The notes beneath the pieces were generated by a model that did no database searches, was not told the DNA's origin, and saw nothing but the letters and a program-made list of their open reading frames with translations. A stretch of DNA of 64,000 nt, from the NCBI GenBank assembly GCA_036925085.1, contig JAUPFP010000023.1, positions 2,121,778 through 2,185,777 of the forward strand, read 5' to 3'. This DNA comes from Brachycybe producta (lineage: Eukaryota; Arthropoda; Diplopoda; Playtdesmida; Andrognathidae). Of the stretch, positions 24,280-53,758 are shown in pieces. How positions within the stretch are numbered: position 1 is the first letter of the stretch; every line of letters begins with the position of its first letter. Both the position numbers and the translations under genes were made by a program.

Positions 24280-27200
24280 ATGAAGCAAGGTTGGCTATGG
24301 ATAGCCATATTAGTAGTTGGATTAGTAACCACACCAGCTGTGTTTAGCAATGATGCCAATGAAAACAGTGAGAATTTACCAGAAAGCCATGTTGAAGAAG
24401 TTACAGGACCACCGAATTTGGACAGTCCACCACCATCATCTATGTGTGTGCATTCCAGTCATCCAAACCACGAATGTATCTCCATTGAATCTTGTAATTC
24501 AACTCAGCGTGTTGTGACTCTACAGTGTGACATTGACGGCACCGTTTGTTGCCTATTTGGTAATGTAAAAAAATATTATAAAATTAGAAATACAAATGTT
24601 AAATTATTATATTTTTTGTGCACTTGTATTTACAGATAATTCAACACGAGAGGCAAGAGAATTAAGTGAAGAAGAAAAGAAAGAAGTTAACACTGCTCTC
24701 GATTCTGGACGTGAACAACTCGAGAAAAGAGACGAACTTGAAAAAGTTCTTAAAACAAAAGGTATACTGAAATAATTTTACTTGTTTTTTTTAAGTATTT
24801 TTATAGACGTTTAGAATGATGACAGACAAGCAACTTTCAGTGGTCGAGATAGACTGCAAAAAGTTGTCGGCGTGTGGCCAAAACCGACCACTCGAGTCGA
24901 CGACGACCGGCGATTGGGTAATGGTCCTAGTGTAGTTCGATGACTTGCAAAAAGTGGCCGTATAGAGTCGACTCCAGAGGTCGGTTTCGGCCACACACTG
25001 AACACTTTTAACAATCACCAAATCGACTAGAAAAAAATGCTCATCAGTGATCGCCCAAAACAGCTAGCTCACTTTCGAAACCTGGTTATTCCGCATTTCA
25101 GGAGCAACGTCACTAAATAGAAATTAAAAATGTGTTACAAACCGAAATCGTAGCTCAATAACTTACGCACTTTATCACACAGACCACTTTTGGTGGTCGA
25201 TTTCGACTGTAAAATGAAGTCGAGTTGTCACTCGTGTGCCAAGGTATGGCTTTTTTCAATAGCAATTCATTGCAACCACAGCCAAGCCACCTGCGACAAC
25301 ATCTTGCAGTCGAAATCGACCAACAAAAGTGGTCTGAGTGCCAATTAAAGCCCGTATTTTCCTGATGATATATTTCAAAATAAAACTTCTTATAGACAAA
25401 AATTAGAAAATGTCATCTGCTTAAAAAATAGACTATTTTCAAACTGCCATAATATAAAAAGCTTATTTTAAAACAGATCAACATGGAATTTACCTTTGAG
25501 TGGCTCAGCTAACTTGTTATACCAGCCTCATTTTAAAAAGAAGCTTGTGACGTCATAGTACGTCATACGTAAAAATTTAGTATCGTGTCATATAATCTGA
25601 ACATTTTCAAAAAGATTCTCGAATTCTTTCGATATTGTCCTTTTTATTAGATAAAATGACACAATTTTAAATTTTTCGTCAACCCCTATGACGTCACACG
25701 TTTCTTCTTAGGACGAGGCAGGTATACTTTCTAAAATACTTTCAAATATCCTTTAATTTTCTTCCTGCAAGACAGAATAACCAAAGGTGGAGAAGCGTTT
25801 AGAGTTATTTAAAATCAGCTTAAATTGATTATAATAATTTCAGATCTGTTTGTGAAACCCTACACAAGTGAAGGAATGTACAATGAATATTTGAACTCCA
25901 AAGACAACGCACTGGATGCAGAACGTGATAATTATGTAGTCTTTCAGGCTGTCAAATACTTATCATACAAGTAAAGACAATGTCAAAAGTACCGGTAATG
26001 GTTACGTTTATAGTTGGCACTTTATGCTGATGTCTAGCTACCCTCAAATTGTATACAGTTTAGGAAGGACTCAAACACGAAATGCTGACTACAAACGCAG
26101 CATAATCCAATTTCCTTGTTTTTCATATTTTAATTTTTTTTATCCATTTACAACAGGCTTCCTAATCCTACTGATGTATCGGACGCAGTGCAAAAATACA
26201 TGCAAGTATTTTTTTTTGTAACAAAATTTGAACAAAAATTGCCTGTTTTTGAGTTTACCGAACCTATGCCACTTGTTACATTCTTTAAATACTTACACAT
26301 CGCCGCACATTAATAAGATAAAACATTTAATAAAATCGTGTAATTATTACAGGAATGGAGACCAATCTTCTTTCGACGAATTATTCGCTAATTTTGACAT
26401 GCCATTTGGTGTTCCCAACGGTGAAACAATGGTACATACTCAATTTAATAATGGTGGGCAGGTGGTGGAATCTAGTTCGAACTATACAAGTGCGGGAACG
26501 AGCGGCGACTTCACTGACGGTCAAAGAGAAAGTCAAACGCGTCAAGGAAGAGCAAATGTTTACAGTGCAGGTTACGGCCAGAATTGCGCACCAGTCAAAT
26601 ATCGTTCGGTCGATGGCAGTTGCAATAACTTAAAGCAAAGTCATTATGGAAAATCATTCCGGGTTTACAACCGTCTATTGGCAGCTGATTATGGAGATGG
26701 TTAGTATGAATATAAGTGAAGCGTGTATTTCCAAAACGTTGTAAATGCCAAAATTTAGATTTTTCAAGAAATAGAAAAAACAAATTTTCTACTAAAAAAT
26801 TAAATTAAAGGCAAAAAATATTGTAATAGAATTTATAGGAAGCTAATAAATGAAGAGAATGGATTAAAAATTATTAATCAGTATTAGAATATTTTTTTTT
26901 AAAAAAATTTAAATTTCACTTCAGTTCCAAAATGTTGTAAATGCCAACATCACAACATAAAGTTCTCACTATAGTGACATTGTTGGCATTTACAACGTGA
27001 ATATAATCACCATAAGTGACTAGCCAGGTTGCTACTCGAATTGCTATTGGCTGTTATTATAATGGTATGACTTGCGAAACAATTCTACTTCAGTTTTTAC
27101 CACTAGGAACAGCACTTTCGTGACAAGCAAGTTATCGTACAAAATACATGGCGTTTACAACCCATTTTAGATTAAAAACGTATTTTATCCTTATGTGGCA

Positions 27201-30200
27201 TTTACAACGTTATGGAAATGCACGCTTCAAGTACTGCAAAACATTTATCAAGGTGTAAACTGAACAATATATTTCTAGTATTGAACTACCTTAAATTAAT
27301 ATAAACTTTGCAGTATGCACATTGCACATGCTTGGTAATTTGCCAATGACTGATGAAAATTTCTTTAGGTGTTGCGGCACCAAGAAGAGCTAAGGATGGT
27401 TCCTATCTTCCGAGTGCTAGATTGGTCAGCTCTAACATCGTCATTGATAAAAGTCATGTTTACAAACGTAATTCCTTAATGGCAATGCAATGGGGTCAAT
27501 TCATTGATCATGAAATGAGTTTCACTCCCATTTATAAAGGTGGATTTAAAATTGTTCAAAATATAACATTTACAATGCATAAATAATATTCTTATTAATA
27601 TTCACATAAAGCTCGAGGAACACACGGCATTTTGTGTTGTGCTCCAGAGATCTACAATAATCCCAAACTATTGCATCCAGAATGTTATCCGATTCAGATT
27701 CCAGAAAATGATTACTTTTATAAAAATCATAGATATGCACATCAATCAAGGTGCATGGAATTTGTCAGGTCATTGGCTGGGCCAACTAGCTATGGAGATA
27801 AATATGGTGGTAAGTTTACGAAAAATAAAAATGCCGAAACAATTTGAAATAGAAATTTGTTATTTCACTTTTTAATTTCATTTTTATATTTAAAATAGGA
27901 AAACGACAACAATTAAATCAAGTATCTTCCTACATTGATGGTTCCCTTCTTTATGGTTCATCTTATGATGATTTAAAAGTTTTGAGAAGTTATAATAAAG
28001 GTAATTTTTTTTTTGCAATGGATTGGTGAAAAATCTTTTCAGAAAAATTTCAGATGTAAAAAGCCTTTGATATTTTACAATACAGGTCAATTGAAATCTC
28101 AGCTACTTCGTGGAAAGGAATACATTCCGTTGGAAATTGATCGTAAATGCACGGATCAATCACTCTGTGTCCGTGTGATAACGGGTAACTTCGAGAAATT
28201 TTAAGATAACACGATTAACACAAAAAATCGGATAACGCGAAATATAATTTCTGTTTGGTCCTTTAGATAATCATAAATTGTTTTCTTTTAACACGAAATT
28301 CGTTTAAGATCGTTTTTGAACACCTGAGTTTTCAATAATAATAATAATAACTCTGATTTTTCTGTCTTTCAGAAGAGCAAAATTAAGAAAAATTAGAAAG
28401 TGTTTTAGAAACTGGAAGGGTAGTTCAATCACTTAAGAGAATTTTTTATATCTTTCAAAATAAACCTTTTATAGACAAAAATTAAAAAATATCGTCTGCT
28501 TTAAGTTGTGTCACAAAAAGCTTATTTTGAAAGATACCCTTCTTAGTTTCTAAAACACATTCAAGCTTTTCTTCATTTTGCACCAGAAAAACAGAATATA
28601 ATCAGAATTCGAGAAGCGTTTACACTTTAAAACCACCTTAACACAAAAATTGTCCCAGTCCGTTCCATTTCGTGTTAAACGGTTTCCGCTGTAATTAGGC
28701 TTGCCTCCTGTGGAGGACAGTCCTCTACTCGGAAGAAATGTCCTTCGGCCAGGACCGTCCTCCACGAACGTATTTAAGTTTTTATAAAATTTATTGTGTG
28801 GAGGACATGTTTGCCTTCGTGGAGAAAGGTCCTGACCGGAGGAAGTTTCTTCCAAGTGGAGGACTGTCTTCCACAAAGGAGGAAAGCCTAGTTGTAATAT
28901 TAATAAGTTAATATAATGTGTTTTATGTGTAATCAATCATATAGGTGACTCTCGAGCCAATCAACATCCCTGGCTGACTGTAATGCACAACCTTCTTCTT
29001 CGAGCACACAATTATTACGCTTACGAACTGGCCGCTTTAAATCCTCATTGGGATGATGAATATGTGTACCAAGAAACTAGACGAATCATCGCGGCACAAT
29101 TACAACACATTACTTACAATGAATTCTTACCATCATTATTTGGTACATAAAAAAATTAATGAGAAACTTTTAACGGTTATTTTTTTTGTGTGTGCAAATT
29201 TTGCTTAGACATAGATGCAAAGATTCAAGTAAATAGTTTTCTTAGCTGCACCTTTTAAAAATAAATTCAAAGTTTACTTGAAAATTGACGCGTTAAAGAT
29301 TCGAATGGTAGCATTTTTATGTAGATATCTTTCAAAATATACTTTATATTTCAGTTTAAAAAAGACAAAAAACCTCGTTTCTGATTGCTAATTTGCAACA
29401 AAATATAAAAGAAAAATCGTCGTTTAGAAGTTCTCATGAAGAGTTTATTTTGTAAGAGATCGTCATAAAAATGCTACCACTCAATTCATTTTTACTTTTC
29501 AACTTTCAAATACATCGTGAATTTATTTTAAATTTATTAATTTTAATTAATTCTAAATAGAATTCACAAAATAAAACCACCATAAAATCTGCTTAAAATG
29601 TTTTATGATAAGAAGAAATTGAAAGTTTATTAGAAACTAGAAAGGTAGCTTGAATTACATAATAGTATTTTCAGGTAATATATCTTTCAAAATAACTTTT
29701 TATAACTATTGTCTACATAAAAAAAATGTTGCATAAAAAACTTATTTTAAAAATAAAATATCCTTAAGTGACTGAGCTACCCTTCTAGTTTCTAAAAAAA
29801 TACTTTTAAGTTCTCTTCATTTTGCTCCTGAAAGAAGCAACAATCAAGAAACCTTTACACTTCAAAAATTGCACCTAGAAATTATTTGTATAATTTCTAT
29901 ATTTTGTGTATTAGGTTATGAATTTTTAAACCAATACGGTCTCGGATTAAAAAAATACGGATACTCCAATGATTACGATGAATACATCAATGCGGGATCG
30001 TTAAACGAATTTGCAGCAGCAGCCTTCAGAGTTGGCCATTCATTGATATACGTGAGAAATCTGCTTTCAAACGATAAATCAAAGTAAACTAATCAAATAA
30101 TATTTGCGGATTATTCCCTGAAGGATAACATCGAATATCGCAGTCGAGATTACGGAAACGGCGATTTGGGAAAGTTGAGAGATCATTACTTCACTGCTCA

Positions 30201-33200
30201 TGAATTACACGATGAGGGAGAAGCTGACAAATATTTGCTCAGTCTGATGTCGCAATGGCCCGAACGAGCAGACGTTTCGGTTACAAAAGAGGTAAGGAGT
30301 TCAAGCAAAAACCAGCTTTTATTTTAAATGATTTGTTTTTCCTTTCATTTTCGAAGGTTACAAACTATCTGTTTAAGACAAAGAATGCAACATATGGGAT
30401 GGATTTGGTGTCTCTGAATATTCAGAGAGGCCGAGATCACGGTTTGCCATCGTATAACGAATACAGAAAACTCTGCGGACTTAAAAAAGCTTACAGTTTC
30501 GACGATCTGTACCCTTCGATTGATTTAGACGTAATCTCGAAGTTGAAGTACCTCTACAAGTATAAATAAAAACGTCTTCTTCGTAAAAATCAAATGTTAA
30601 TAATACAATAAATCGCATTTCAAATAGGTCTGTAGATGACATTGACGTTTACATCGGAGGTATTGCTGAGAAACATAACCGTTATGCCATATTAGGACCA
30701 ACATTTTCTTGCATCATTGCAAATCAGTTTCGAAGAGTGAAAAGAGGTGACCGGTTTTGGTATGAATTAGGTGGGCAACCGTCATCATTCACTGCAGGTA
30801 ACCAAAAACGAAGGTGCAAAACGTCACGCAAGCTTTTTTTTTTTTTAGAAACAACATTATGAAAAAAATCAAATTTGTTACAAAACTAGAATAGTAGATG
30901 ATTATGCTTTTTCATTATGATATCTTAAAAAACAAGCATTTTATAGCAGTTTGAAAATGACCCGTTTCTAGGTTTTTCCATTGACATTTTATGAAAAACT
31001 ACTTTCGCCTTTTTCAAACTGTCGTACCACGTATTCTAGTTTCTGAAACACTTTGAATTTTTTTTTGTAATGTTTCTCCTGAAAAACCTTGTGTGTCGTT
31101 TGTGATAACTAATTTTTCCCATAACCTCGGGTGTTGAATTCAACTATCCAACCACCTGAACTATTTTTTTTACCTTACAGAACAACTGCAAGAGATCCGT
31201 AAAACAACACTTGGTTCTGGAATCTGTTTGTTCGCAGACAAAATTAATTATGCCCAAAAATGGGTCTTTAGGTCTCCATACAGCGGGTACGTGTTCGTGT
31301 TGCAATTCATAATGTTGAAACAAAGATTTGACTAACATTGTTCTTTGTTAGAAATCCGATTGTTCCCTGCAAATCACATTATCGACTTGATTTAACAAAA
31401 TGGAGACAGTCTTCAAACAGAGGTTATGGAGGAGCACCTGCTCCAAAATACGATACTACTGTTTTACATAGTGGACCAGCATCAGAATACAATCCTGCTT
31501 ACGGAGCAGATTCCGAATACGGTGGAGATGGAAATCTTTACATTGCTACTGGAACTTACAGTGGACCTGCATCACAATATGAGGGAGCTTTTGCTTCTGA
31601 ATATGATCAAGAAAAACCTGGAGCAACATATGGTAGTAGTGGATCTGTACCAGCCTATGACAGCATTGGTAGTGGATACAGTGGACCGGCCCCAGCCTAT
31701 GACAGTGCTGGAAGTGGATATAGTGGACCTGTTCCAGCATATGACAGTGCTGGAAGTGGATACAGTGGACCTCCTCCAGCATACGATAGTGCTGGAAGTG
31801 GATACAGTGGACCTGCTCCAGCATATGGTAGTCCTGGAATTGGATACAGTGGACCTGCTCCAGCATATGACAGTGCTGGAAGTGGATACAGTGGACCTGC
31901 TCCAGCATATGGTAGCCCTGGAATTGGATACAGTGGACCTGCTCCAGCATATGACAGTGCTGGAAGTGGATACAGTGGACCTGCTTCAGCATATGGTAGC
32001 CCTGGAATTGGATATAGTGGACCCGCTCCAGCATATGACAGTGCTGGAAGTGGATACAGCGGACCTGCTTCAGCATATGGTAGCCCTGGAATTGGCTACA
32101 GTGGACCTGCTCCTGCATATGATAGTGCTGGAAGTGGATACAGTGGACCCGCTCCAGCATATGACAGTGCTGGAAGTGGATACAGCGGACCTGCTTCAGC
32201 ATATGGTAGCCCTGGAATTGGCTACAGTGGACCTGCTCCTGCATATGATAGTGCTGGAAGTGGATACAGTGGACCTGCTCCAGCATATAGTAGCCCAGGA
32301 ATTGGATATGTTGGACCTGCTCCAGCATATGACAGTGCTGGAAGTGGATACAGTGGCCCTGCTCCAGCATATGACAGCACTGGTAGTGGATACAGTGGAC
32401 CTGCTCCAGCATATGACAGCTCTGTTGGTGGATACAGTGGACCTGCTCCAGCATATGACAGTGCTGGAATTGGCTACAGTGGACCTGCTCTAGCATATGA
32501 CAGCACTGTTAGTGGATACAGTGGACCTCCTCCAGCATATGGTAGCCCTAGAAGTGGATACGGTGGACCAGCCCCAGCATATGATAGTACCGGTAGTGGA
32601 TACAGTGCACCTGCTCCAGCATATGACAGTGCTGGAAGCAGTTATAGTGGACCTGCTCCAGCATATGACAGCACTGTTAGTGGATACAGTGAACCTCCTC
32701 CAGCATATGGTAGCCCTGGAAGTGGATACAGTGGCCCTGCTCCAGCATATGACAGTGCTGGAAGTGGATATAGTGGTCCTGTGCCGGCATATGACAGTGC
32801 TGGTAGTGGATACAGTGGTCCTGTGCCAGCATATGGCAGTGCTGGAAGTGGATACAGTGGACCTGTGCCAGCATATGACAGTGCTGGAAGTGGATACAGT
32901 GGACCTGTGCCGGCATATGAAGGTGGTTCTAGTTACAGCTCAAGTTCATCTTATGACAGCAGAGCACCATATAGTGGCGGAGCCTCATACAATTCACCTG
33001 GCTACACTCCTGAACCATATGCAGCAGGATCATATGGAGATAGAAACAACCCCTCTTATGGAGAGTCCAGTCACAGCAGTTCTGACTCAAACTGGGGTCT
33101 GGTGCTGGCTAGAGAAGGTGGTGAAAGAAAAAGATCATACCCTGAACCTGGTTATGGTTACGGTAGCCCTGGTTATGGTTATGATGGTCCTGAGTATGGT

Positions 33201-36200
33201 GCTGAGACAAGTGCTTATGGTGCTGCATCTAAATCGGCTTATGACAGTGCATCCAAAGCGAGCAGTGACTATGACAAGTCAAAGAGTGATTCGTATAATG
33301 CTGACGCAAGGGCATACGACAAAGCAGCCTCATCTTACGGAGCAAGTAAAGATGCTTACAAAGATAAAGATTCCTCCAAGAAATATGCTGAAGCAGACTA
33401 TTATGGTAAAGGAGCAACGTATGGAGATCGTAAATATGCTGCCAATCGTAAATACTACGCATCTAGATATGGAGCTACAAGAGGTTACGAAGATAGCGTT
33501 TATAGTTCTGATCGGTATTCCGCAGAAAAAGCCAAAGCTGACCACAAGGAATACGGAGCTGCTGCATCTCATGACAAGTCTGCTTATGATGCAAGTTCAT
33601 ACGGAGCAAAAGCTAAGGCCGACAGTTACTCTAAAGAAACAGATTCTGCTGCTTCCAAAGCAGAGCATGACAGTGCTTACGATGCAGGCTCCAAATCTAG
33701 TTACGATAGTGATGCCAGTTCTGCCTCCAGTACAACCTATGTTGCTAAACCAACTTATGAAGGTCCCAATTATGATTCTGGCTACTCAGGTAGCGAGTCT
33801 ACTTATGGTGGAAGTTACCCAAGTGGACCTAGTTACAAAGATAGCAGTCCTTCGTACAGTGGCTCAAGCTATGACACCGGTTACTCAGGTAGTGATTCAA
33901 GCTATGGAGGTGGTAGTTACCCAGGATATAGTGGATCCAGTTATGGAGAAGGCGGCCCGGGTTATGGTGGTGCCAGTTATAGTGGTTCAAGCTATGACAC
34001 CGGCTATTCAGGTGGTGATTCCTATGGAGGCGGTTACCCAGGATATAGTGGACCCAGTTATGGAGAAAGCAGTCCAGGGTACAATGGCCCTAGTTACGAT
34101 ACGAGTTACACAGGTAGCGAATCTAACTACGGAGGCAGTTCAGGCTATAGTGGACCCAGTTATGAAGGAAGTGGCCCTGGATACAGTGGACCAAGTTATG
34201 GAGGAAGTGGTCCTGAGTACAGCGGACCCAGTTATGAAGGAAGCGGACCCAACTATGGAGGAAGCGGTCCTGGGTACAGTGGACCAAGTTATGGAGGAAG
34301 TGGCCAAGCATATAGGGGACCTGCAGGTTACGGCCCACAATATGGTTCCTCAGGTTACAGTGATCGGTACACGAGATCACATGATAGTCCAGTTGATGGT
34401 AGCAATATAAATGGAACCGAAATCGAGACTTCATCACTAGATAACAATAACAGAACTGATGAGAATATTAACGAAATAGAACAACCCTTATTTCAATCTA
34501 ACACAACGACTGATGGTGAAACTGTTGTGACTAATTCCACATCCTTTGAAGACACCGAAAATAAAGAGCGAAAGGAAAGAGCATATCCATATACATCTGG
34601 AGTTGGATATGGAAGCTCTCGAGGGTATGAAGGATACGCTGAACCATCATCTGCATCGGCAGCCTACGTAAATAAAGCTTCGTATGACAGTGCCTACAAA
34701 GCCAGTGCTGACCGTGATAAGGCTAAATCCAGCGCCTCTTACTCCGAAGCTGATTCCTACGATAAAGAAGCTGCACGATATGGTGCTGCTAGAGATTCTT
34801 ATGCAGCAGCTGATTACGGCAAGAAACATTCGGAAGCAGATTACTATGGGAAGGATGCTGCATATGGTGACAGAAGATACGGTGCCAGACGAAAGTATTA
34901 CGAGTCATCGTATGGCGCAAAAAAAGCATTTGAAGACTCTGTGTATAGTGCTGATAAGTATGGCGCACGTCACGCCAAGGGAGATCACAAAGAATACGAT
35001 GCAGCAGCTGATCACAAAAAAGCTTCTTACGATGCAAGCTCATATGGTGCAAGAGAAAAGGCCGACGATTACGACAAGAAAACGGGATCAACGTACTACA
35101 ACAAAGAACATGACGATGCTTATGCAGCCAGCAGTAAAGACAGTTACAAAAAAACCGCTGCATCTGAAGAAAAATCTGTTCCGACTTATACACCACCACC
35201 TACGTATTCGGCACCACAAACTTATCCAGCACCTACTTATGCGGCACGAAAACCATCATATGATACCGGCTATGATGCAGGCTCAAGCTATGGAGACAGT
35301 AGATATGCCGGGGGACCAGTGTATGATTCGGGATATGGAAATCGTGGATATGGAGAAGGAGAAGCGAGTTATCCCTCTGCTGGATATTCAGGCAGTTCCA
35401 GCTATGGAAGTAATCCACCTTATGGAAGTAACCCACCTTATGGACGTGGTGCATATGAAAGTGGCCCAAGTTATGGGAGAAATTACGGTGGCGACTCCAG
35501 TTATGGTAGTGGATACGATCAACGTTACCCGAGATCTCACACTGACAAAAATAATTCAGAATCAAATACAGGCCTTGAAGTAGAAGATCAAACTGATAAG
35601 ACAGTTGAATTGGCTCCACACCATGAAACAAATTCTAGCGGTATCGCTGATGGCAACGAAGAAAGTTCTTTCCATGAAACAAACAGCGATTTGGAAATGG
35701 CAGACTCAGTAACACATAATGGCACCGATAGCGGAGACGAGGAAATGAGCAATCGACAAGAAAGAGCTTACGGTGGATATGGTCCATCATATGAACCAGC
35801 CTATGAATCTGCATCATATGCTTCTAAGGCCTCTTATGACAGTGCCTACAAAGGTAATACTGACCATGATGCTGCAAAATCAAGTGCAGCTGATTCTAAA
35901 GTTAGATACTACGACAAAGAAGCTGCACGATATGGCGCTGCTAGAGATTCTTACGCAGCAGCTGATTACGGCAAGAAACACTCTGAAGCGGACTACTATG
36001 GGAAGGATGCTGCTTATGGCGACAGAAGATACGGTGCCAGACGGAAGTATTATGAGTCGTCGTATGGCGGAAGAAAAGCATTTGAAGACTCTGTGTACAG
36101 TGCTGATAAGTATGGTGCACGTCACGCCAAGGGAGATCACAAAGAATACGATGCAGCAGCTGATCGCAAAAAAGCTTCATATGATGCAAGCTCATATGCT

Positions 36201-38787: not shown

Positions 38788-38789
38788 GT

Positions 38790-40100: not shown

Positions 40101-40104
40101 ATTT

Positions 40105-40199: not shown

Positions 40200-40780
40200 A
40201 TATTTTCAAAATAAAAATTGAAAATTATGAAAGATTTTCAAAATTGAAAATGTTAAAACTACTTGAGTAATATTTTTCAACTCCCTTTAAGAAAAAAAAG
40301 AAGTGAGAAACACACACACACACACATATACAGAGAGAAACACTATACATCAAAATCTCGGAAATTGACAAAACTTAAAAGAATTATGTATTCAAAGTTG
40401 AAATCAAAGTGCAATGTAAATATTTTAGTTTTTCAATGCATTCATTCGCAATCAGTATTAATCCAAATTATCTCAATTGTTTAAGTTTTAAAGTTCTTGC
40501 AAAGTCCGATTTGCTTGTTTGAGAAAAACAGTTTTTCAAAAAAAAGGGTTTCGAAAACCGACAAGGACAAGAAGAAAAAGAATAGATTTTGAAGATTTTG
40601 ATGCTCATCATTGAATACACAGTAAAGGCCAAAGATAAAAGTTCATCTTTTTACAAAATAATATTAATATACAAGAAAGCTTTTTAAACTTTCAAGTAGT
40701 TTTAAAAACCATTCAAGATTTCATAAGCAATTAAAATTTAATAGAATGTCGATGTTACTAACTGAATACAAAACATTTTG

Positions 40781-40788
40781 TATTTAAG
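40781..40788 (+). promoter_or_regulatory. Possible TATA box of peroxidase C
   Basis: TATTTAAG about 60 nt upstream of the first ATG at 40842, which would place the start near 40811 and leave a short 5' UTR without the long UTR intron seen in A and B. Confidence 0.4.
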
Positions 40789-40841
40789 TATATACCTAGC
40801 CACCAATTGTCTGACTGGCAAGGCCTTCAAAGTGGCCTACA

Positions 40842-43800
40842 ATGTCCAATCAGGACAAAATGTATCGTCGAGGGTTCAAGCCGATATTCGTACTGTTACT
40901 TACAGCCGGATTCTTTGCTGTACCATCAGTAGTTGCAGGTTCCGATAATAAAACAATAATTGAAAGTGTGACGATAGATGTTACGAAAACAACAGAAATC
41001 GAGTTAAACGATAATAATAATACAATCTGTGAAAGTACGGACGAATGGATTCGAGAATGTGTTTTTCCTGATGAATGTGATTCGAATTCTCGTGTTTTAA
41101 ACTCAACTTTACTGTGTTCGATCTCTGACACAGTCTGTTGTGAAAATGGTAAGCATTATTGTCGATAGTACCGTTCGACAACTTACTTAAATTTCAAATT
41201 TACAACTATATTAACAGCCACAGATGGGTCACTTACAAGAATCTCTCGAGCGAATCCGTACGGTATTCCAGAATACGGCAGTAGTCCCTACGATGGACCA
41301 AGTTTGCCTTACGTTCCACCTGCAGGGTACGGTACGAGACTACCAGAAATCTACGATGGAAAAGGAGCCCCTTACCACGATGTTAACAAAGCTGTCGATT
41401 ACGGCATGGAATATCTCGGCGAAAGAGACAGTCTCGAAAAGGAACTACTGAACAAAGGTGCTCCCAACTTCACAAGATAAGTTTATTATCAAAAATCTTA
41501 ATGAAATGTATTATCTTCAGGGCTTTACGTGAAACCGTATACCAGCGAAGCTATGTACAATGAATACCTGAAACCGGACGACAAAGCACTACAGTCCGAA
41601 AGAAGATCATTTGTCATTTTTCAGGCCATCAAATACCTTGCCTTCAAGTAAAATATTTTTTGCTGTTGTTCGAAATTGTCAACCAATAAATACAGTGGAA
41701 ACCGCTTAACACAAAAAATCGGATAACACGAAAAAATATTCTTGTCCTTTCCATGTCGTGTTAAATGGTCTCCACTGTTATTTAGAACAATTTGAATTCA
41801 CTTGACATTATTTTGTTCTTTTCAGAGCTGGAGATGAAAGTAAAACCTATGCACAACCAGCATACGGAAGTAATCAGGGGTCCTATAGTAGTGGAGGAGC
41901 ACAGTATGGTGGATCGGATCAATATGGTGCTGGACAATATGGTTCTTCTGGAAGCCAATATGGAGTGGGAGCCGCAAAAAAAGTTGGCGAAGAATACGCC
42001 ACCTCTGAACCTTACGTCACTGGCTCCTATAGTAAAGCCCTGTATGACAGTGTCTCATCTGGTGACTATGCTAAAGGCACCAGTCCTTATCCAGAACGGT
42101 ACACCAAAGAATGTGTCGCAACAAAATATCGAACTCTCGATGGACACTGCAACAATCTTAAGTATCCAGAATGGGGTCGAGCTTTTAGAGTTTATAATCG
42201 TCTAACTGGAGCTAGTTATGGAGATGGTTAGTATACATTAATATTAAGGCTAAAAATTTGCATAAAATGTCCAAAACGCATAATGATGGTTCCAACTTCG
42301 TGACTGACTGCCATATGTGAAATAATAACCAGTTTCACCCCCAAAATAAAAACGCATAAAATGCATAAATTACATAATTGTTTCGAAAATTTGTATTAAT
42401 TTGCATAAATTCACTTATTTCTTTAAAGACTTTAATCCAAAGTTTAAAAAAAAAATGCACAAAACGCACAAATTACATAATATTTTGAAAATTTGTATAA
42501 ATTTGCATAATTTCAAAAAAAATTAGTTAGAAATAAAATGCAAAATTTATATATATATAAAAAATTTCACATTTCTGAATTTGTACTTGCATAAAAACAA
42601 GTTTTGGCCTTAATTATTATGCATCAGTTGACGAAAACAGTGTTTTCAAAACATATTTTTGATGTTTCGAAGTTGATTCTTATCAGGAATTTCTACACCT
42701 CGAAGAGCAAAAGATGGTTATTATCTTCCAAACGCCAGACTGATCAGTAGCAGCATTTGTCACGACAAAAGTTATCCGATTTATCAAAACACGCTCATGG
42801 TTATGCAGTGGGGTCAATTCATAGACCACGATATGAGTTTTACTCCAATTTACAAAGGTATCTTTTGAGAGAACAAAAAGAAAATCAACCTGTGAATACT
42901 GAAACAATTACCATTTTTTTTTGTTCCTTGCTCTCTTTATCAGCACGTGGAAGTAATGGCATATTATGTTGTGCACGAGAGATACAGTATAACCAGAAGT
43001 TATTACATCCCGAATGTTATCCGATTTTGATACCGAAAAACGACTACTTTTATTCGAGACATAATTCCGGATGTATGGAATTCGTCCGTTCTCTGGCAGG
43101 AACTTCGTACGAAAAAACCTATGGCGGTAACTTGTGATTTTGTCGTGAACATTTTAGAAAAACTCTAGAAATAATTTGTTCGGTTACGATCTATAGGTTC
43201 GGGTAAACGTCAACAACTTAATCAAGTCTCATCTTTCATTGATGGATCTTTGATTTATGGATCGTCTTTGGAAGAAACCAAAAGCTTGCGAACATATAAA
43301 TACGGTATAATTTCAATTTGTAGATTTTGAACGATAAGAAACGCTGGAAATTGTTTCGATTAGGAGCCACTTAGCCTCTATGTACGAGCCTGTACAAAGC
43401 TCTTTCGTTTTAGAGCCTTTACAGACAAGCGACTTTTTAGTGGTCGAGTTCTACTGCAAAATGTGGTTGAAAACGACGACTCGTGGCTGTACTATGGTTG
43501 ACAATGTATTACTCTGAAAAGCGTCCGGACCTGTACACATGACCGGCTTCTCAAAAACTGATGAACTGCAGTCGATGGACGGTGGTCAATTTCCGCCACC
43601 GGCAACAGCATTTCTTGTTTTCAGATGGACCACTCGTCAATGACCTACCACCTCTTTTAATCGTCAGAGTTCATTTTGCCTGAATAGCTACAGAGGCCAT
43701 AGCTGTCGCCCTTCACCGCCACTATTAGTAGTTCACTAGACTACACTAGGACCACATTCCAACCACTGACAGTCGACTTGAGTCTTCACTTTCGACGACA

Positions 43801-46800
43801 CGCCGACTAGATTTTGCAGTCTATCCGCAGTTTTAACTGGGAGGCTAACGACTCCTAGTCGAAAGAATACCAGAAAACGCTTTTTCAATAACCACGAAAT
43901 GTATATTTTTACAGGTACACTGATTACTGTGGTCCGTTACGGCAAGGAATACATTCCCATTCATACCGATCCTTATTGTAGGGACCCTTCGTTGTGTTAT
44001 CGTGTCCTTACCGGAGATATAAGAGCAAACATGCATCCATGGTTGACTGTATTACACACGTTGTTTGTTCGTGAACACAATAAGATTGCAAACGCTCTTT
44101 ATAAAATCAATCCAGACTGGGATGATGAGTATTTGTTTCAAGAAACTAGAAGAATCATAAGTGCCATTTTGCAACATATCACGTACAACGAATTCATACC
44201 AGCACTGTTCGGTATTTTATAGAACTTTAAAGATGTTTTATTAAAAGCTGACTTTCGAATTCTGGTTATTCTGCGATTTAGGAACAACACAAATGGAGAA
44301 AAATAAAAGTGTTAAAAACTAGAATGGCAGCTGAATTATTTGATAGTATTTTCATTTTGATATCTTTCAAAATAAGCTTTTTATAGACAAAAAGACATAA
44401 AAAAGCTTATTTTAAATTATATCAACATAAAAATACACTTATAATTGATTGAGCTACTCTTCTAGTTTCTAAAATACTTTCAAATTTCTCTTAATTTTGC
44501 TCCTGAAAACAAAATAACCAGAGTTTGAGAGTTGAGTTTAAAAAAAACGCTTAAAAAAACACAGTAAAAATGAAAATCTCTCATTCTCAATTTGTCTAAA
44601 TTTCATTTTAGGTTATGACCTTATTGAGAAATATGGCATCGGATTGAAAAATTACGGTTACTCGAATGATTACAACGACTATCTTAATCCAACATCTCTG
44701 AATGAATTTGCATCTGCCGCTTTCAGAATGGGACATTCACTAATCTATGTAAACAAGTTTACCCATGATATTAATTTGTGTCGTAAAACGCTTAATTTGT
44801 TTTTGTTTTTAATTCAGGGAACCATTGAATATCGTAGCCGAGAGTATGGTCGCGGAAGTCTCGGTAATCTGAGAGACCATTACTTCAGTCCTTATGAAAC
44901 GATACAACCTGGTGTCATGGACAAATATCTTGTCAGCCTCTTTACTCAATGGCAAGAAAAAGTCGATGTTCACGTAACAAAAGAGGTACTTTTTTTTCAA
45001 ATTAAGGTGCCGGTGGTTTTATTGTGTAAACGCACTTGGAATTCTAGTTAATCGACCTTTCAGAAACAAAATTTAGAAAATCTTGAAAATGTTTTTAGAA
45101 AGTCAATAACTCAGTCACTTAAAAATAATTCTCATGTTCACATCTTTAAAATTAAACTTTATTTATGGCAGTTTAAATAAAACCGAAATTTTATGATTTT
45201 TTTTTAACTGCATTAGACTTTAAAAAGAAAAATTACAAATTTTAATTTTCTAGTTTATGAAACACTTTTATTTTATTTTTAAAGCGGTTTCAAAGTGTAA
45301 ACGCGCTTTCGAACACTCTAGATATTCTGTCTTTCGAAAGCCAAACTTGTCGTTCAAGAAACTTGCGAAATTGTTTTAGAAACTAGAATGGTAGCTCAGT
45401 CACTTAAGAGTATTTTCATGTTGACAACATTTAAAATAAGATTTTTTATTTCGGCTTGAAAATGTCTCAGCTTTAAGCAGGCGATATTTTTTAATTTTCA
45501 TCAAGAAAAAAAAAATTATTCTGAAAGATTTCAATATGAAAATATTACTAAGTGATTCAGTTACCCGTTTTAGTAACAACACGCTTTCAATTTCCAGCAA
45601 TTTAAATAGAAATTCAAATAAAAACATCTTAACCGATGGTTACATTTTTGAGAACCAAAAGAAAACTTTTCCTTGTTTCACTTACAGGTCACAAACTACT
45701 TGTTCAAAACAAAGAACAGTACGTACGGTTTGGACCTGATTGCTCTGAACATTCATCGAGGTCGAGATCACGGTCTACCTGGGTACAACGAATACAGAAA
45801 AATATGTGGTCTCAAGAAGGTCTATTCCTTTGATGAACTTTATCCATCCATCGATAGAGACGTCATTTCAAAACTAAAATATCTTTACAAGTGAGTGAAT
45901 TATCAACTTATCAGTGATGTTACCAGAATGAAATATGTGGCTTTTATATTGTTTCGACATTGGTGGTTTTAAAGTGTAAACGTCCCTCGAACTCTAGTCA
46001 TTCTGTCTGTCTAGCTGAAGGAAAATTAAAAGAAACTTGAATGTGTTTTAGAAACAATATAATAATACTAGTGGGGTAACCCGTCATAAATGACGGGAGC
46101 CAAATTCACAGGCAATTGTGCCCAGCATTAGAATTTCTTTTCCTCCGCCCTTTTATGACGTCAGACCAAGTAACAAACCAATTAGAAATTGATGACGTTC
46201 ATAAAAGGGCGGAGCAAAAGAAATTCTAATGCTTGTGATAAATTCTAGTTTAATTTTGCTACTATTATCCCCTCCCCTTTTTATATTTGAAAGAGAAAAT
46301 GAGTTTTTCATTTTCTCTGGTGTGCGCATGCGCGTCGTTTGTTCCTTATTTACTCCTTTCATTTCAATGAAGTCACATCATCGCATCAGTCACAACAGAC
46401 TTCGAAAAGAAGTTCTAGTCATATTTGCACATCATTCATATTGCACAGTTTTAGAAACTAGAACGGTAGCTCAATCACTTAAATGCTCATGTTCATATTT
46501 TTTTTAAAAAATAAGCTTATTATGAAACTTTGAAAATGAACCAACTTTAATCAGACAATATTTTTTAAATTTTTTTTGTCTATAAAACGTTTACTTTAAA
46601 AGATATCAACATGAAAATGTTATTAAGTGATTCAGCTACCTTTCTAGTTTCTTACATACTTTCAATTTGAACTGTCTAGGATGCAGAATTAACCAGAGTT
46701 CGGAAAATCAGCTCTCCATAAAGTTGCATAAACCAATTCAATTGTTTTTTTATAGATCTGTAGATGATATTGATCTCTATATTGGAGGAATTGCCGAAAA

Positions 46801-49800
46801 ACACAACCGTTATTCTTTATTGGGCCCCACATTTGCCTGCATAATAGCCAATCAGTTCCGTAGAGTCAAAAAAGGAGATCGCTTTTGGTACGAATTAGGT
46901 GGACAACCTTCATCTTTCACACCAGGTAATGTTCAGACATAAGAAGAAAAAAAAAGCTAGGACCTAGTCACAATTTCACTCTTTCGGAAAATATAAACAA
47001 GTATTTATTAATTTTAACATTCAGAGCAACTACGAGAAATACGTAAAGTTCACCTATCGAGACTTATCTGCAATAATGCCGATAATATCAATTATGTACA
47101 ACAATGGGTATTCAAAACTGCGAGTAAAAGGTATCGAAAAACAGGTATTTAGGTGACAACTTATGGAAACATAACAGTGTATTTTTCTACTTTCAGAAAT
47201 CCTTATCTTACGTGCAAAGGAAGTTACATTCCTGCCATTGATCTGACCAAATGGAAGTCTTCGTATCAAAAAGGTTACGAAAGTAAAGACAGCGGCTACA
47301 GTGAAGCTGGATCGTATTCCGAGAAGCAACCCTCTTACGGCCCTACCTATGATACTGGCAAGAGTTACGATGCAGGAACGGCATATGGCGCCGAATATGG
47401 TGCAGGAGCGGCATATGGAGGTGGTGAAAGTTATGGAGAAGCAGCAGCAGGAGGAGGATCCACTTATGATTCAGTTGCAGCTGGAGTGGAATCTGGAGTC
47501 AGCGGAGTGGACAGTTACGGCGGCGGAGCTGCTGAAGTAGGTTCGACATATGATGCTGGTTACAAAGAAGCTGAAACCTATGGAGGAGTCGGAAGTTCTA
47601 GTTATGATTCTGGATATGCCGGTGGAGATAGCTATGGCACACCGGCAGGAGGAGATGCATACGATAAAGGTTATTCTGCTGGAGACGGCTACGTAGAATC
47701 AGCTGGAGGATCTAGTTACGATTCTGGAGTCGTGACCACCTACGGTGATACTGCTGGAGGTGCTGCCTATGATTCAAGTTACGGAGGTGCAGGAGACACT
47801 TATGGCGGCGCCGCTAGTGTACTTGGTGGAGAATCTGCTTATGATTCTGGCTACAATGCGGAATCGTCAGTGGCAAATGTCGGAGATACAGTTTATGCAA
47901 AATTAACAGAAACCATTCCTGAAAGACCCACTTATGATTCTGGCTATACAAGTGAAAGTACTTATGGAGGACCTTCTGGGGGAGCTCCAGAAGCATACGG
48001 AGGAGCAGCGTATGATTCGGGATATAAGGCACCGGAAACTTATGGAGGAGCTGCATATGATTCAGGATATAAAGCGCCAGAAACCTATGGAGGAGCTGCA
48101 TACGATTCAGGATACAAAGTTTCCGAAAGCGCCAGTGGAGCAGCGTACGATTCGGGATATAAGGCACCGGAAACTTATGGAGGACCTGCATATGATTCCG
48201 GATATAAAGCACCAGAAACCTATGGCGGAGCTGCATACGATTCAGGATACAAAGCTTCTGTAAGCTCCAGTGGAGCAGCATACGATTCAGGATATAAGGC
48301 ACCAGAAACCTATGGAGGAGCTGCATACGATTCAGGATACAAAGTTTCCGAAAGCTCCAGTGGAGCCGCATACGATTCGGGATATAAGGCACCGGAAACT
48401 TATGGAGGACCTGCATATGATTCCGGATATAAAGCACCAGAAACCTATGGAGGAGCTGCATACGATTCAGGATACAAAGTTTCCGAAAGCTCCAGTGGAG
48501 CAGCATACGACTCGGGATATAAGGCACCGGAAACATACGGAGGAGCTGCATACGATTCAGGATACAAAGCTTCCGAAAGTTCCAGTGGAGCAGCATACGA
48601 TTCGGGATATACGGCACCGGAAACTTATGGAGGACCTGCATATGATTCCGGATATAAAGCACCAGAAACCTATGGAGGAGCTGCATACGATTCAGGATAC
48701 AAAGTTTCCGAAAGCTCCAGTGGAGCAGCATACGACTCGGGATATAAGGCACCGGAAACATACGGAGGAGCTGCATACGATTCAGGATACAAAGCTTCCG
48801 AAAGTTCCAGTGGAGCAGCATACGATTCAGGATATAAGGCACCGGAAACTTATGGAGGAGCTGCATATGATTCGGGATACAAAGCTGAAGATAGTTACGG
48901 AGGTGCAAAATTGGCAGGCTCAGCTTACGATTCTGTAAATGAAGAGATTGAAAGTCAAGGCGAATATTCAGTAGGACCCTCTTATGAAGCAGGCAACTTA
49001 GGTGCTGAAACTTATGTAGGTCCTTCTCTAGGACATGCAGAAGCCGATAACTATGGAGGAATTTCTACACTTGGCCTAGATGGTGGAGGCTATACAGGAG
49101 GAATATCTAACGTCGGATCCGAATTAGTTGGTGGGGTTGGATACAATGAACCATCTTATTCTTCGGCAGCTGAATCTTCTAAATCAGCTTACGACAGCGC
49201 TTATGCAGCTGGCAGCGAAAGCGACCAGGCTAAAGGAAGCGCGTACGATGCGGAAGCTGAAGCTTATGATAAGGAAGCATCGGTATATGACACGAAAACG
49301 GATTCTTATGCCGATAAAGAATATGCGAAAAAGGAATCAGAAGCAGATTATTATGCCAAAGGTTCGACATACGAGGATCATCAGTATGCTGCCAAAAGAA
49401 AATATCACGAATCTAAATATGGAGCAAACAAAGCATACGAAGACTCCGTTTACAGTTCACAAAAATACGGAACACATCAAGCAAAAGGAGACCACAAAGA
49501 ATCTGACGCTGCTACCGAAGGCGAAAAGGGCTCCTACAGTGCAAGTTCATATGGGGATAAGTACAAAGCAGACGATTCTGATAGAACAGCAGGTTCAACG
49601 ACCTACAGTAAAGAACATGACGATGATTATAAAAGCAGCTCCAAAGATAGTTATTCAAAAACAGCTGCTTCCAAAGAACAATCTGTACCGACCTACACTG
49701 CTCCAGTTACTTATTCAGCACCAGCTGCTGCTTACGATAGTGGTTATGGAGATAGTGAATATAGAGGGCCAACCTATAGTGGTTCAAGTTACGGAGGACC

Positions 49801-52800
49801 AACTGATAGTGGTTCAAGTTATGGAGGGCCGCGTTACGAAGACAGAGATTACGAAGCAGCGCGCTATAGCGAAAGCAGATACGATCCACGTTACCCACGA
49901 TCGCATTCCGATGAAGAAACAACTGAAACAAATATCGAAACTGAAGAAAAAGATACTACTCAGGAAAGTAACGACGACAATGAGAACCTGGAATTATCAA
50001 CAGCTTCTACAGTTGAAGGTGAAGAATTTGAAAAACCTGAAGACGATCGCGAAGAACGGTCTTATGGCGAGTACAATGCTGGTGGATATGGTGAATCGTA
50101 TGAGCCACCACCACCTGCATACGCTTCTGCAGCATCTGCATCAAAGGCCTCCTACGACAGTAGTTCCAAAAGTGCTGCCGATCACGACGCAGCAAAATCA
50201 AGTGACTACGGTGCTGAAGATAGGTACTACGACAAAGAAGCTGCTAAATACGACACCAGCAAAGATTCATACGCAGCTGCCGCTTCAGCAAAGAAACACT
50301 CGGAAGGGGATTACTATGGTAAAGATGCATCCTACGGAGAGAAACGATATGGAGCTCATAAAAAATACCACGAATCACGATACGGAGCAAACAAAGGCTA
50401 CGAAGATTCTGTGTACAGTTCTGATAGGTACAGCACTGAAAATGCAAAAGCAGATCGTAAAGAATACGACGCAGCAGCAGATCGCAAAAAGGATTCTTAT
50501 GATGCAAGCTCATATGGTGCGAGAGAAAAAGCTGATGCTTCTGACAGAAAAACAGACTCGTCGTACTACAGCAAGGAACATGATGACGCTTCCAAAGCCA
50601 GCCAAACAGACAGTTACAGCAAAACAGCAGCTGCTAAAGAACAATCTGTTCCAACATATACAGCTCCGGCACCGGCTTACCCAGCACCAGCTGCATCTTA
50701 TGATACAGGATATGGAGGTCCGAGCTATGAAGGAGGCGGATATGGAGGTCCAACTTACGATGACACAGCATATGGCGGAAGTGGATACGATCAACGTTAT
50801 CCGCGATCACAATCTGTTGAAACCGAAACAGATTATACAAGAAATGACGACGAAACCACGCCTATAGAAGAAGCTGATTCAACTACACATGAGAAAGTAA
50901 CTGACATAACAGAAGATGGCGGGGAAAGCCTTGATGGCACAGACAACACAGAAACGTCAACAGTTAATAGTGACGAATTAGAAAAACCATCAGACGACCG
51001 CGAAGAGCGGTCTTATGGAGAATACAATCCAGGTGGATACGGTGGATCGTACGAGCCACCACCACCAGCATATGCTTCTGCATCATCTGCATCAAAGGCC
51101 TCCTACGACAGTAGCTCCAAAAGTGCGGCAGACCACGATGCTGCTAAATCCAGTGCTTATGGTGCTGAAGATAGATACTACGATAAAGAAGCTGCCAAAT
51201 ACGACACCAGAAAAGATTCCTACTCAGCTGCCGATTATGGAAAGAAACACTCTGAAGGCGATTACTATGGAAAGGATGCATCTTACGGAGAGAAACGATA
51301 TGGAGCGCATAAAAAATATCACGAATCTCGATACGGAGCAAACAAAGGCTACGAAGATTCTGTGTACAGTTCCGATAGATACAGCACTGAAAATGCAAAA
51401 GCAGATCGTAAAGAATATGATGTAGCTGCAGATCGTAAAAAGGCCTCTTACGACGCAAGTTCATATGGCGCAAGAGAAAGAACCGATGCTTCTGACAGAA
51501 AAACAGACTCGTCGTACTACAGCAAGGAACATGATGACGCTTCCAAAGCCAGCCAAGCAGACAGTTACAGCAAAACAGCAGCTGCTAAAGAACAATCTGT
51601 TCCAACATATACAGCTCCGGCACCGGCTTACCCAGCACCAGCTGCATCTTATGATACAGGATATGGAGGTCCGAGCTATGAAAGAGGCGGATATGGAGGT
51701 CCAACTTACGATGACACAGCATATGGCGGTCCCAGTTATGGCGGAAATGGATACGATCAACGTTATCCACGATCACAATCTGTTGAAACCGAAACAGATT
51801 ATACAAGAAATGACGACGAAACCACGCCTATAGAAGAAGCTGATTCAACTACACCTGAGAAAGTAACTGACATCACAGAAGATGGCGGGGAAAGCCTCGA
51901 TGGCATAGACAACACAGAAACGTCAACAGTTAATAGTGACGAATTAGAAAAACCAGAAGCCGACCGTGAAGAGCGGTCTTATGGAGGTTACAATCCAGGT
52001 GGATACGGTGGATCGTACGAGCCACCACCACCAGCATATGCTTCTGCATCATCTGCATCAAAGGCCTCCTACGACAGTAGCTCCAAAAGTGCGGCAGACC
52101 ACGATGCTGCTAAATCCAGCGCTTATGGTGCTGAAGATAGATACTACGATAAAGAAGCTGCCAAATACGACACCAGAAAAGATTCCTACTCAGCTGCGGA
52201 TTATGGAAAGAAACACTCTGAAGGCGATTACTACGGAAAGGATGCATCTTACGGAGAGAAACGATATGGAGCGCATAAAAAATATCACGAATCTCGATAC
52301 GGAGCAAACAAAGGCTACGAAGATTCTGTGTACAGTTCCGATAGATACAGCACTGAAAATGCAAAAGCAGATCGTAAAGAATATGATGCAGCTGCAGATC
52401 GTAAAAAGGTCTCTTACGACGCAAGTTCATATGGCGCAAGAGAAAGAACCGATGCTTCTGACAGAAAAACGGACTCGTCGTACTACAGCAAGGAACATGA
52501 TGACGCTTCCAAAGGCAGTCAGGCAGGCAGTTACACGAAGACTGCAGCCGCTGAGGAACAATCTGTTCCAACATACACAGCTCCAGCACCGGCACCAGAA
52601 CCGACTTACAGAGCTCCGGCACCGACATATGCAAGACCTGCACCATCTTACGATACCGGCTATGAAGGAGAATCTGGATATGGTGGTTCTCCTTATGGAG
52701 GACCATCTTATGATAATAGAGGATACGGAAGTTCGAGCTATGGCGATGTCGGATATGATCCTCGTTATCCACGATCTCATTCGGAAAATGAGGATGCGGC

Positions 52801-53758
52801 AACCGATTCGACACCAATGCCATCACACGATAACATGCAGGAGGAAAGTTCTACTGATGAATCGCCTTCTGAAACGAATCAAGATGAAGACGTCATGTCT
52901 GAAGTTACTACAACTGAAGAAGTCTCTCATTACGATGATGATTCCGATCAATCAGATATCACCGATGAATCTACTGTTGCTCCACGCAATGTAGATGACG
53001 ATAAAAACAGTCACGAATCCAGTAATTTGGATAACGAAAACGAAGAACGCAAAGAGAGATCTTACGGTGGTTACGGCGGATCATACGTACAACCACAACC
53101 ACCAGCCTACGAATCTGCCGACTACGTTTCCAAATCAGCATACGACAGTGCTTACAAAGGTGACGCTGATCATGATGCTGCAAAATCTAGCGCTTACAGT
53201 GCAGAAACCCAATATCGTGACAAGGAAGCTGCCAAATATGCTGCAGCGACTGATTCCTACAAAGCAGCAGATTACGGCAAGAAACATACCGAAGCAGATT
53301 ACTACGGAAAGGACGCTGCGTACGGAGACAAGCGTTATGGTGCAAGACGCAAGTACTACGAGTCGTCGTACGGTGCGAGAAAAGCTTACGAAGATTCCGT
53401 CTACAGTGCTAACAAGAAAGATGACCGTCACGCCAGAGGAGACCACAAAGAATACGATGCAGCTGCCGATCGTAAGAAAGACTCGTACGATTCGAGTTCG
53501 TACGCTTCGAGGTTAAAAGTCGATGATTCAGCCAGAAGAGCAGATTCATCGTCTTCAAGTAGAGAACACGATGACGCTTACAGAGCTAGCTACAAAGATA
53601 GTTCTAGAAAAACGGCTGCAGCTTCAGAAAAGTCCGTCCCAACTTATACATCACCTCCACCAACCTATGCGCCACCACCTGTTTACAGGAGCGGACCACG
53701 TTATCGTGCTCCTACTAGACCGGCTCCTGGTTATGGTTCGCGACCATACAATGGCTGA
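40842..53758 (+). CDS. Peroxidase C: secreted haem peroxidase fused to a ~2170-residue Tyr-rich repeat tail
   Basis: Predicted 3059 aa, tandem paralogue of B. Exons 40842-41148, 41218-41457, 41521-41647, 41826-42226, 42687-42857, 42944-43126, 43197-43304, 43915-44211, 44612-44748, 44818-44985, 45688-45890, 46756-46925, 47025-47130 and 47197-53758 sum to 9180 nt in frame. Start is the first Met; a second Met six codons on (40860) begins the signal peptide proper ([18 protein letters not shown]). A CLIP-like six-Cys domain ends TVCCENG. Before the catalytic domain there are Tyr/Gly-rich inserts (for example [14 protein letters not shown]). Distal His ~407 is in [11 protein letters not shown] and distal Arg ~549 in GDIRANMH, where the haem-linking Glu is Met. 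[14 protein letters not shown], proximal His ~653 (FRMGHS) and [11 protein letters not shown] are present. Exon 8 fuses what are two exons in A and B, so one intron was lost. The tail has a 15-residue array, then five conserved modules with acidic spacers. Probably a cross-linking enzyme carrying its own substrate (inference). Confidence 0.92.
41691..41780. mobile_element. Short Tc1/mariner-type MITE in intron 3 of peroxidase C
   Basis: 90 bp, TACAGTGGAAACCGCTTAAC to GTGTTAAATGGTCTCCACTG then TTA. Best-preserved ends of the family at 14012, 17432 and 28205. Confidence 0.8.
42240..42640. repeat. Tandem-like ATGCATAAAT / GCATAAATT repeats in intron 4 of peroxidase C
   Basis: Repeated phrases such as TTTGCATAA, AAAATGCATAAATTACATAA and GAAAATTTGTATAAATTTGC occur at least three times. 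Class unknown. Confidence 0.5.
43426..43870. repeat. GC-richer repeat block of the GGTCGA family, intron 7 of peroxidase C
   Basis: Contains ACAAGCGACTTTTTAGTGGT and CGAGTTCTACTGCAAAATG, with several partial inverted copies (GACTCGTGG, GTCGATGGACGG, AGTCGACTTGAG). Related to 18631-18777. Confidence 0.5.
44242..44545. repeat. Foldback element in intron 8 of peroxidase C
   Basis: Family core: TAAAAACTAGAATGGCAGCT, TTTCAAAATAAGCTTTTTAT, TCTTCTAGTTTCTAAAATAC. Arms pair around 44390. Confidence 0.65.
45004..45605. repeat. Two adjacent foldback elements in intron 10 of peroxidase C
   Basis: First about 45004-45290 (AAGGTGCCGGTGGTTTTATT to AAAGCGGTTTCAAAGTGTAA), second about 45290-45605. Both carry TTTTAGAAA and TAGCTCAGTCACTTAA-type cores. 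Confidence 0.6.
45961..46735. mobile_element. Foldback element interrupted by a younger 392-bp insertion with 11-bp target duplication
   Basis: In intron 11 of peroxidase C. The host element starts GGTGGTTTTAAAGTGTAAAC and resumes at TTTTAGAAACTAGAACGGTA; each arm is about 150-200 bp. The inserted sequence (46056-46447) begins just before CTAGTGGGGTAACCCGTCAT and is flanked by GTTTTAGAAAC at 46045-46055 and 46448-46458. It contains an inverted repeat with CTCCGCCCTTTTATGA related to the ACAGGC MITEs. A second copy of the insert is at 58473-59130. This family also explains 9402, 15711, 21989, 28331, 29200, 44242, 45004 and 54008. Confidence 0.75.
48003..48902 (+). repeat. 15-residue tandem array (45-bp unit, 20 copies) in the peroxidase C tail
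   Basis: Units are [15 protein letters not shown] and [15 protein letters not shown] in a partly alternating order, with higher-order groups of three to five units repeated almost identically at DNA level. Unlike the array of B it is rich in Lys and Glu and has few Pro. The AYDSGY core is shared with B. Confidence 0.95.
49160..53758 (+). repeat. Five conserved modules and four acidic spacers in the peroxidase C tail
   Basis: Modules at about 49160-49700, 50110-50660, 51070-51620, 52030-52580 and 53110-53660, homologous to those of B ([40 protein letters not shown]). Spacers are 49901-50059, 50807-51010, 51773-51976 and 52775-53059 (53, 68, 68 and 95 aa). Each begins after RYPR and ends at REER or RKER. 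Modules 2, 3 and 4 repeat with a period of about 950-970 bp and are nearly identical, so they were duplicated or homogenised recently. The protein ends GSRPYNG. Confidence 0.92.

Follow-up and report, generated by a model that had tools for sequence, protein, structure and literature searches.

Tandem millipede haem peroxidase genes with tyrosine-rich modular tails: predicted polyproteins of enzyme and putative substrate

Introduction

Can a peroxidase be encoded in one gene with the protein that it cross-links? Peroxidase-made dityrosine materials, such as eggshell and resilin-like cuticle, are understood as the work of an enzyme on separate proteins. The question is raised by two tandem genes, B (24280-37400, + strand; 15 exons, 2826 residues) and C (40842-53758, + strand; 14 exons, 3059 residues), in a 64,000-nucleotide stretch of DNA from the millipede Brachycybe producta (hereafter the window; G000:C23:2121778-2185777, in a 295-Mb genome of 442 contigs), each encoding a peroxidase followed by a long tyrosine-rich tail. 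An initial annotation of the locus had taken the tail for the likely substrate of the enzyme, covalently part of it. It is proposed here, at a probability of about 0.58, that B and C are secreted polyproteins, in which a haem peroxidase, Tyr-rich modules and acidic spacers bracketed by Arg-X-X-Arg (RxxR) motifs would be cut by a furin-type convertase into an enzyme and substrate pieces.

Enzyme and tail in one reading frame

The exons of B and C were read by hand from the sequence and joined by script, splicing and transcription being predicted. All introns are GT-AG and each predicted frame is open up to the stop. Exon phases match between the two genes, C having one intron fewer, with its exon 8 (297 nt) equivalent to B exons 8 and 9 (99 + 198 nt); this regular layout, common to two paralogues, supports the predicted models. 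A candidate extra exon of B (26157-26205) was dropped, its inclusion breaking the frame. The initial annotation and the hand-built models agree on starts, ends, exon numbers and last-exon sizes (6.0 and 6.6 kb), and its description of two tandem genes with a full peroxidase and a Tyr-rich tail of about 2000 residues is borne out by the GT-AG models, the complete match to An_peroxidase (530/530 positions) and the open frames.

The end of the catalytic fold and the entire tail share the last exon in both genes, namely exon 15 of B (31352-37400, + strand, 6049 nt; fold end NPIVPC...LDLTKW) and exon 14 of C (47197-53758, + strand, 6562 nt; fold end NPYLTC...IDLTKW). The first residue of this exon is number 811 of B and 873 of C, shortly past the end of the Pfam model (805 and 867), and the exon opens with the final fold segment NPxxxC...DLTKW, from which the tail continues directly, without a stop or splice junction. 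The joining of tail and fold is thus independent of any guessed splice site. In a PDB comparison, the final segment of C aligns to the last residues of myeloperoxidase (740/741) and lactoperoxidase (592/595).

That the tail exons are separate structural-protein genes, wrongly joined to the peroxidases, might be argued from models that are predicted from sequence and from a tail composition unlike that of the enzyme. The chance of such an artefact is considered slight, given that both paralogues have fold end and tail in one exon and one frame, that C could be aligned to the end of myeloperoxidase and that a genome-wide search brought up no free-standing module gene. Across the whole 295-Mb genome, the repeated module of the tails gave 10 matches, all in the last exons of B and C (17 candidates, all scored), and it was not found in any of 30 loci examined.

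The modules are conserved at the protein level. Modules 2 and 3 of C differ at 5, 8 and 44 first, second and third codon positions, respectively, over 206 codons, with a ratio of nonsynonymous to synonymous divergence (dN/dS) of 0.07; this predominance of third-position differences between module copies indicates that the tail frame is not due to chance and encodes a real protein. The five module pairs with estimable synonymous divergence (dS) gave dN/dS of 0.07, 0.16, 0.07, 0.18 and 0.05, the lowest of which rests on a dS of 3.9, near saturation, and dS was not estimable in four further module pairs or in the B/C domain pair, both of which reduce the weight of these ratios. Module 3 of B and module 5 of C are 73% identical in amino acids, and the module array probably predates the split of B and C, its protein sequence having been kept since. 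Separate genes and a chance frame were together rejected on the open frame, the myeloperoxidase alignment, the third-position differences and the absence of the module elsewhere in the genome; that the tail exon belongs to separate genes, the outcome that the initial annotation had named as fatal to it, is very unlikely.

Enzyme domain

Both proteins match Pfam An_peroxidase (PF03098) over 530/530 positions, at 611 (B) and 638 bits (C), and no other Pfam domain, LRR, Ig, VWC and NADPH-oxidase included, was detected in the first 920 residues of either. In an alignment of 270 domains, among them second domains from double peroxidases and the incomplete neighbouring gene A, the distal Gln/Asp/His and Arg, the proximal Arg/His and the Asn of NIxRGRDHG are all kept in B and C; the catalytic roles of these residues are presumed to be those established for myeloperoxidase. 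The position of the second haem-ester Glu (GDxRANxH) is Gln in B, Met in C and Glu in A, with Glu in 220/270 domains. It is a variable position that is not needed for PF03098 membership. This Glu is lost in both tailed enzymes and kept in the tailless A. The residue after the distal His is Glu in B and Asp in 258/270 domains.

The domains of B and C are 70% identical over 570 codons and pair with full support in the domain tree, in which no orthologue of the two stands out (node support 0.41). Gene A pairs with protein P0145 of the centipede Strigamia maritima (support 0.95) and is placed among chelicerate proteins (0.92; 14/17 names seen). The insect setting of the initial annotation is left unsupported by this pairing of A with a centipede protein, which points, if weakly, to a myriapod. 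P0145 (T1J8N9), a chorion/CG5873-like PF03098 protein with a complete peroxidase domain, is 44% identical to B and 46% to C and has, by eye, also a Cys-rich N-terminal segment; unlike B and C, it ends 12 residues past the domain, without a module tail. CG5873 of Drosophila busckii is 43% identical to C.

Elsewhere in the genome, 91 pieces of An_peroxidase domain were found, those of A, B and C included. By position they amount to about a dozen further peroxidase genes, on contigs C11, C2, C8, C15, C69, C115, C4, C6, C87 and C25, some of them clustered on C11 and C8. Ten of the 14 other peroxidase ends inspected show C...[DN][LF]xxW with a stop 2-23 codons further on (a narrower end pattern caught only 5 of these), and in the remaining stretches (L009, L010, L020 and L022; 4/14) a clear fold end was not found. 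A Tyr-rich frame in L022 was discarded as a tandem-repeat artefact.

Organization of the tails

The tails contain 269 Tyr in 1997 residues in B (13.5%) and 278 in 2166 in C (12.8%), and no Cys in either. Using tblastn, nine homologous Tyr-rich modules were recognized, four in B and five in C, alternating with seven acidic spacers. Every one of the seven spacers is flanked by RY[PT]R↓S in front and R[EKQ]ER↓[SA]Y behind, the arrow marking the predicted cut, and the following module starts with SY or AY; the flanking motifs are predicted to be minimal furin-type sites. Across both tails, 14 of 15 RxxR motifs lie at spacer borders, the exception being RHAR inside module 5 of C, and their number exceeds that in shuffled tails (B, 6 vs a mean of 2.0, P 0.015; C, 9 vs 2.8, P 0.0016). 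Spacers hold 7 Tyr in 521 residues as compared with 461 in 3066 for modules (C array included, B array excluded), and consist overall of 30% Asp+Glu. N-glycosylation sequons number 10 in the B spacers, with none in the C spacers or in any module. These contrasts between spacers and modules are descriptive, the borders having been set at RxxR motifs and the module copies being related.

All tail features lie on the + strand. In B, the repeat array adjoining the enzyme (31407-33134; Tyr/Gly/Ser/Pro in 14-residue units, with Tandem Repeats Finder reporting 31638-32920) ends at a degenerate RKR↓S and is followed by module 1 (33135-34376; 16.9% Tyr), spacer 1 (34377-34580; Tyr 0, four N-glycosylation sequons, RYTR↓S ... 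RKER↓A), module 2 (34581-35534), spacer 2 (35535-35765; Tyr 0, RYPR↓S ... RQER↓A), module 3 (35766-36629), spacer 3 (36630-36905; 4.3% Tyr, RYPR↓S ... RKER↓S) and the terminal module 4 (36906-37397), which is the weakest match. In C, the repeat array, made of 15-residue units, and module 1 form one segment (47258-49900) with no RxxR between them, the module match covering about 49193-49744. There follow spacer 1 (49901-50059; Tyr 0, 41.5% Asp+Glu), module 2 (50060-50806), spacer 2 (50807-51010), module 3 (51011-51772), spacer 3 (51773-51976), module 4 (51977-52774), spacer 4 (52775-53059) and the terminal module 5 (53060-53755); the first three spacers run from RYPR↓S to REER↓S and the fourth from RYPR↓S to RKER↓S.

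No Pfam family, cuticle domains included, was matched by the last-exon frames (P0001, P0002) at E<=1, and the C tail, the only one compared, had no PDB match at E<=0.01. AlphaFold2 gave one module a mean predicted local distance difference test (pLDDT) score of 44, and the idea of a folded module was set aside on this value. A substrate role of the tails is plausible, considering that they are Tyr-rich, Cys-free and of low-confidence fold.

Tailed peroxidases in other arthropods

Relatives were collected in two domain searches with 252 and 485 matches, the best 120 of each giving 230 different proteins; because the first search was limited to proteins of about 1554 residues or more, tail counts are not prevalences. 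Among these listed relatives, tails of at least 200 residues occur in 73, at least 500 in 70 and at least 1000 in 17. One domain with a tail of about 500-3850 residues, as in B and C, is found in insect peroxidases of Periplaneta, Hymenoptera, Chrysoperla, Carabus, Orussus, Nilaparvata (A0A220QMD1), Lycorma, Anabrus and Ischnura; some of these tails are locally Tyr-rich, yet by eye their sequences differ from those of B and C. The tails of Nilaparvata, Lycorma and Anabrus, unlike those of B and C, contain 2.3-3.5% Tyr and, as read by eye, repeats with WSG/WNG motifs. In the best 200-residue window, Tyr reaches 18.5% in Periplaneta (two entries, one tail), 19.0% in B and 18.0% in C, the next-best windows, at 12-13.5%, including those of Chrysoperla, a bee, Carabus and ants. 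In Periplaneta americana (P0083/P0120), the tail follows residue 658 of P0083 and carries SKPHYEYTTHSKPYDEYPS-type repeats without RxxR, an uncut parallel to the tails described here.

B and C thus fit the tailed arthropod peroxidases, with a long low-complexity C-terminal tail (1997 and 2166 residues) on one domain, and Tyr-rich peroxidase tails are not unique to this genome. The initial statement that no described family has this architecture was too strong in view of the insect peroxidases with long, locally Tyr-rich tails. The domain-architecture search that it had recommended did return such tails in insects, whereas none of the five insect tails read showed modules alternating with acidic spacers between paired RxxR sites. 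B and C are best regarded as a variant of tailed arthropod peroxidases, the predicted polyprotein layout of both tails being new here. Among 5.8 billion proteins (7983 candidates, of about 1210-3850 residues only), no match at E<=0.001 came up for the stretch from residue 600 to 1300 in the last-exon frame of C, and the literature, covered as titles and abstract openings with most subscription papers outside the coverage, yielded no peroxidase fused to a Tyr-rich substrate.

The company of so many long tails (at least 200 residues in 73 and at least 1000 in 17 of the 230 listed relatives, a length-biased set) also suggests that the tails of B and C could be disordered anchors or spacers and not substrates, with Tyr serving in binding or phase separation; whole-tail Tyr does not exceed 7.5% in the listed relatives' tails over 300 residues. 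This function is improbable for B and C, whose whole-tail Tyr (13.5% and 12.8%) exceeds that of all 143 other tails of at least 30 residues (maximum 9.9%, in a 71-residue tail) and whose spacers are nearly free of Tyr.

Fusions of a peroxidase domain to other parts are known from Peroxidasin and Duox, the accessory domains of which are absent from the Pfam scan of the first 920 residues and the tails of B and C. Resilin and Tyr-rich chorion and cuticle proteins have Gly/Ser/Tyr repeats suited to dityrosine formation and are separate from the enzyme; the tails of B and C have similar repeats and are joined to it. The GAM56/GAM82 oocyst-wall precursors of Eimeria, unlike B and C, presumably include no enzyme. 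Cleavage of these precursors by serine proteases gives Tyr-rich peptides, which are believed to be then dityrosine-linked, and this processing resembles the scheme predicted for B and C (PMC3770453).

Predicted processing

Under the polyprotein reading, secretion is predicted from the hydrophobic N-termini, as judged by eye, and cutting by a convertase at the paired RxxR sites from the motif pattern alone. After cutting, 881 residues (repeat array and module 1) would stay on the C enzyme as an arm; the arm of the B enzyme would measure 576 residues with, and 990 without, a cut at the degenerate RKR. Modules of 164-414 residues would be freed, and the acidic spacers would be discarded or would mask the modules until release. 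Further RxxR motifs precede the catalytic domain (residues 98-101 and 241-244 in B, 110-113 in C) and could free it from the N-terminal segment. With hydrogen peroxide, the peroxidase would generate tyrosyl radicals, leading to dityrosine bonds between the modules and the enzyme's own arm; an extracellular matrix would be hardened in this way and the enzyme fixed within it, with eggshell, cuticle, silk and glue as candidate matrices. Insect peroxidases cross-link chorion proteins through dityrosine (PMC13409908), and it is from this chorion chemistry and from the Eimeria work (PMC3770453) that we infer dityrosine formation and a matrix role.

The same tails could remain uncut, the enzyme linking its own tail and neighbouring chains into a matrix, with the RxxR segments as mere linkers. 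The Periplaneta tail, where Tyr peaks at 18.5% over 200 residues and RxxR is absent, would be a precedent, and the arm adjoining the enzyme lacks RxxR for about 880 residues in C and 990 in B, the degenerate RKR at 1403-1405 aside. An uncut fusion is nevertheless rather unlikely: the paired motifs are present at 7/7 spacers in both genes despite 30% residue divergence of the B and C domains, and composition shifts sharply at the RxxR motifs. The initial claim that the substrate is covalently part of the enzyme holds in so far as the tail shares an open exon with the fold end; given the modules, acidic spacers and paired RxxR, the linkage is probably not permanent.

Several observations weigh against cleavage into enzyme and substrate. 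The sites follow the minimal R-X-X-R pattern rather than R-X-K/R-R, and P2 of RYPR is Pro. Within the folded domain, too, RxxR is present (B 755, 758; C 343, 841), as it is once in module 5 of C, so that the motif alone proves nothing, and its excess in B is modest (P 0.015). Fisher values for composition are overstated, as segments were pre-cut at RxxR and module copies are non-independent, and a low AlphaFold score obtained from nine paralogues offers weak support for disorder. The Periplaneta tail, Tyr-rich without RxxR, indicates that cutting is not a necessary fate of tails of this kind. In favour of cleavage, fragments of a convertase P domain occur in the genome (8 matches), although this domain is not exclusive to convertases and one archaeal control matched too. 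The activity of B and C may also differ, given the substituted haem-ester Glu and the Glu after the distal His in B.

Genomic context

Along the window, gene A (- strand) comes first, then a CLIP serine protease (+), the tandem pair of B and C (+) and, after them, a cyclase-family gene. Peroxidase gene A (1046-7582, - strand) has no tail and a short C-terminus, the end motif of its fold being followed by a stop 7 codons on. Its N-terminus matches CLIP (PF12032) at 19.3 bits, against a cut-off of 20; neither CLIP PF12032 nor any other Pfam family was found at E<=1 in the N-termini of B and C, where a six-Cys pattern was seen by eye only. The serine protease between A and B (17778-19637, + strand; Trypsin 155.9 bits, CLIP 22.1 bits) is a possible alternative processing protease. 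Downstream of C lie a minisatellite (56540-57094; 18.5 copies of a 30-base unit, 98% matches, several frames open), the cyclase-family gene (PF04199; 60145-60807, - strand, 129 bits, with a possible first exon on the same strand at 62046-62240 by eye), which we take to be kynurenine-formamidase-like, and a fragment of a hAT transposase dimerisation region (62937-63170, + strand, 33 bits).

Implications

Taken one step further, B and C may each be a hardening kit, in which one precursor cut on secretion would deliver a peroxidase and dedicated substrate copies found nowhere else in the genome, at enzyme to module ratios of 1:4 (B) and 1:5 (C), in the same place and at the same time; this fuller account is held tentatively, at somewhat less than even odds. 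If true, one gene would supply enzyme and substrate at fixed stoichiometry, which would explain matched cross-linking, and nature would offer materials chemists a model for proteins that set by themselves. Beyond this millipede, the largely unnamed tails of insect peroxidases (73 of the 230 relatives listed in the length-biased set) are suggested as candidates for built-in substrates.

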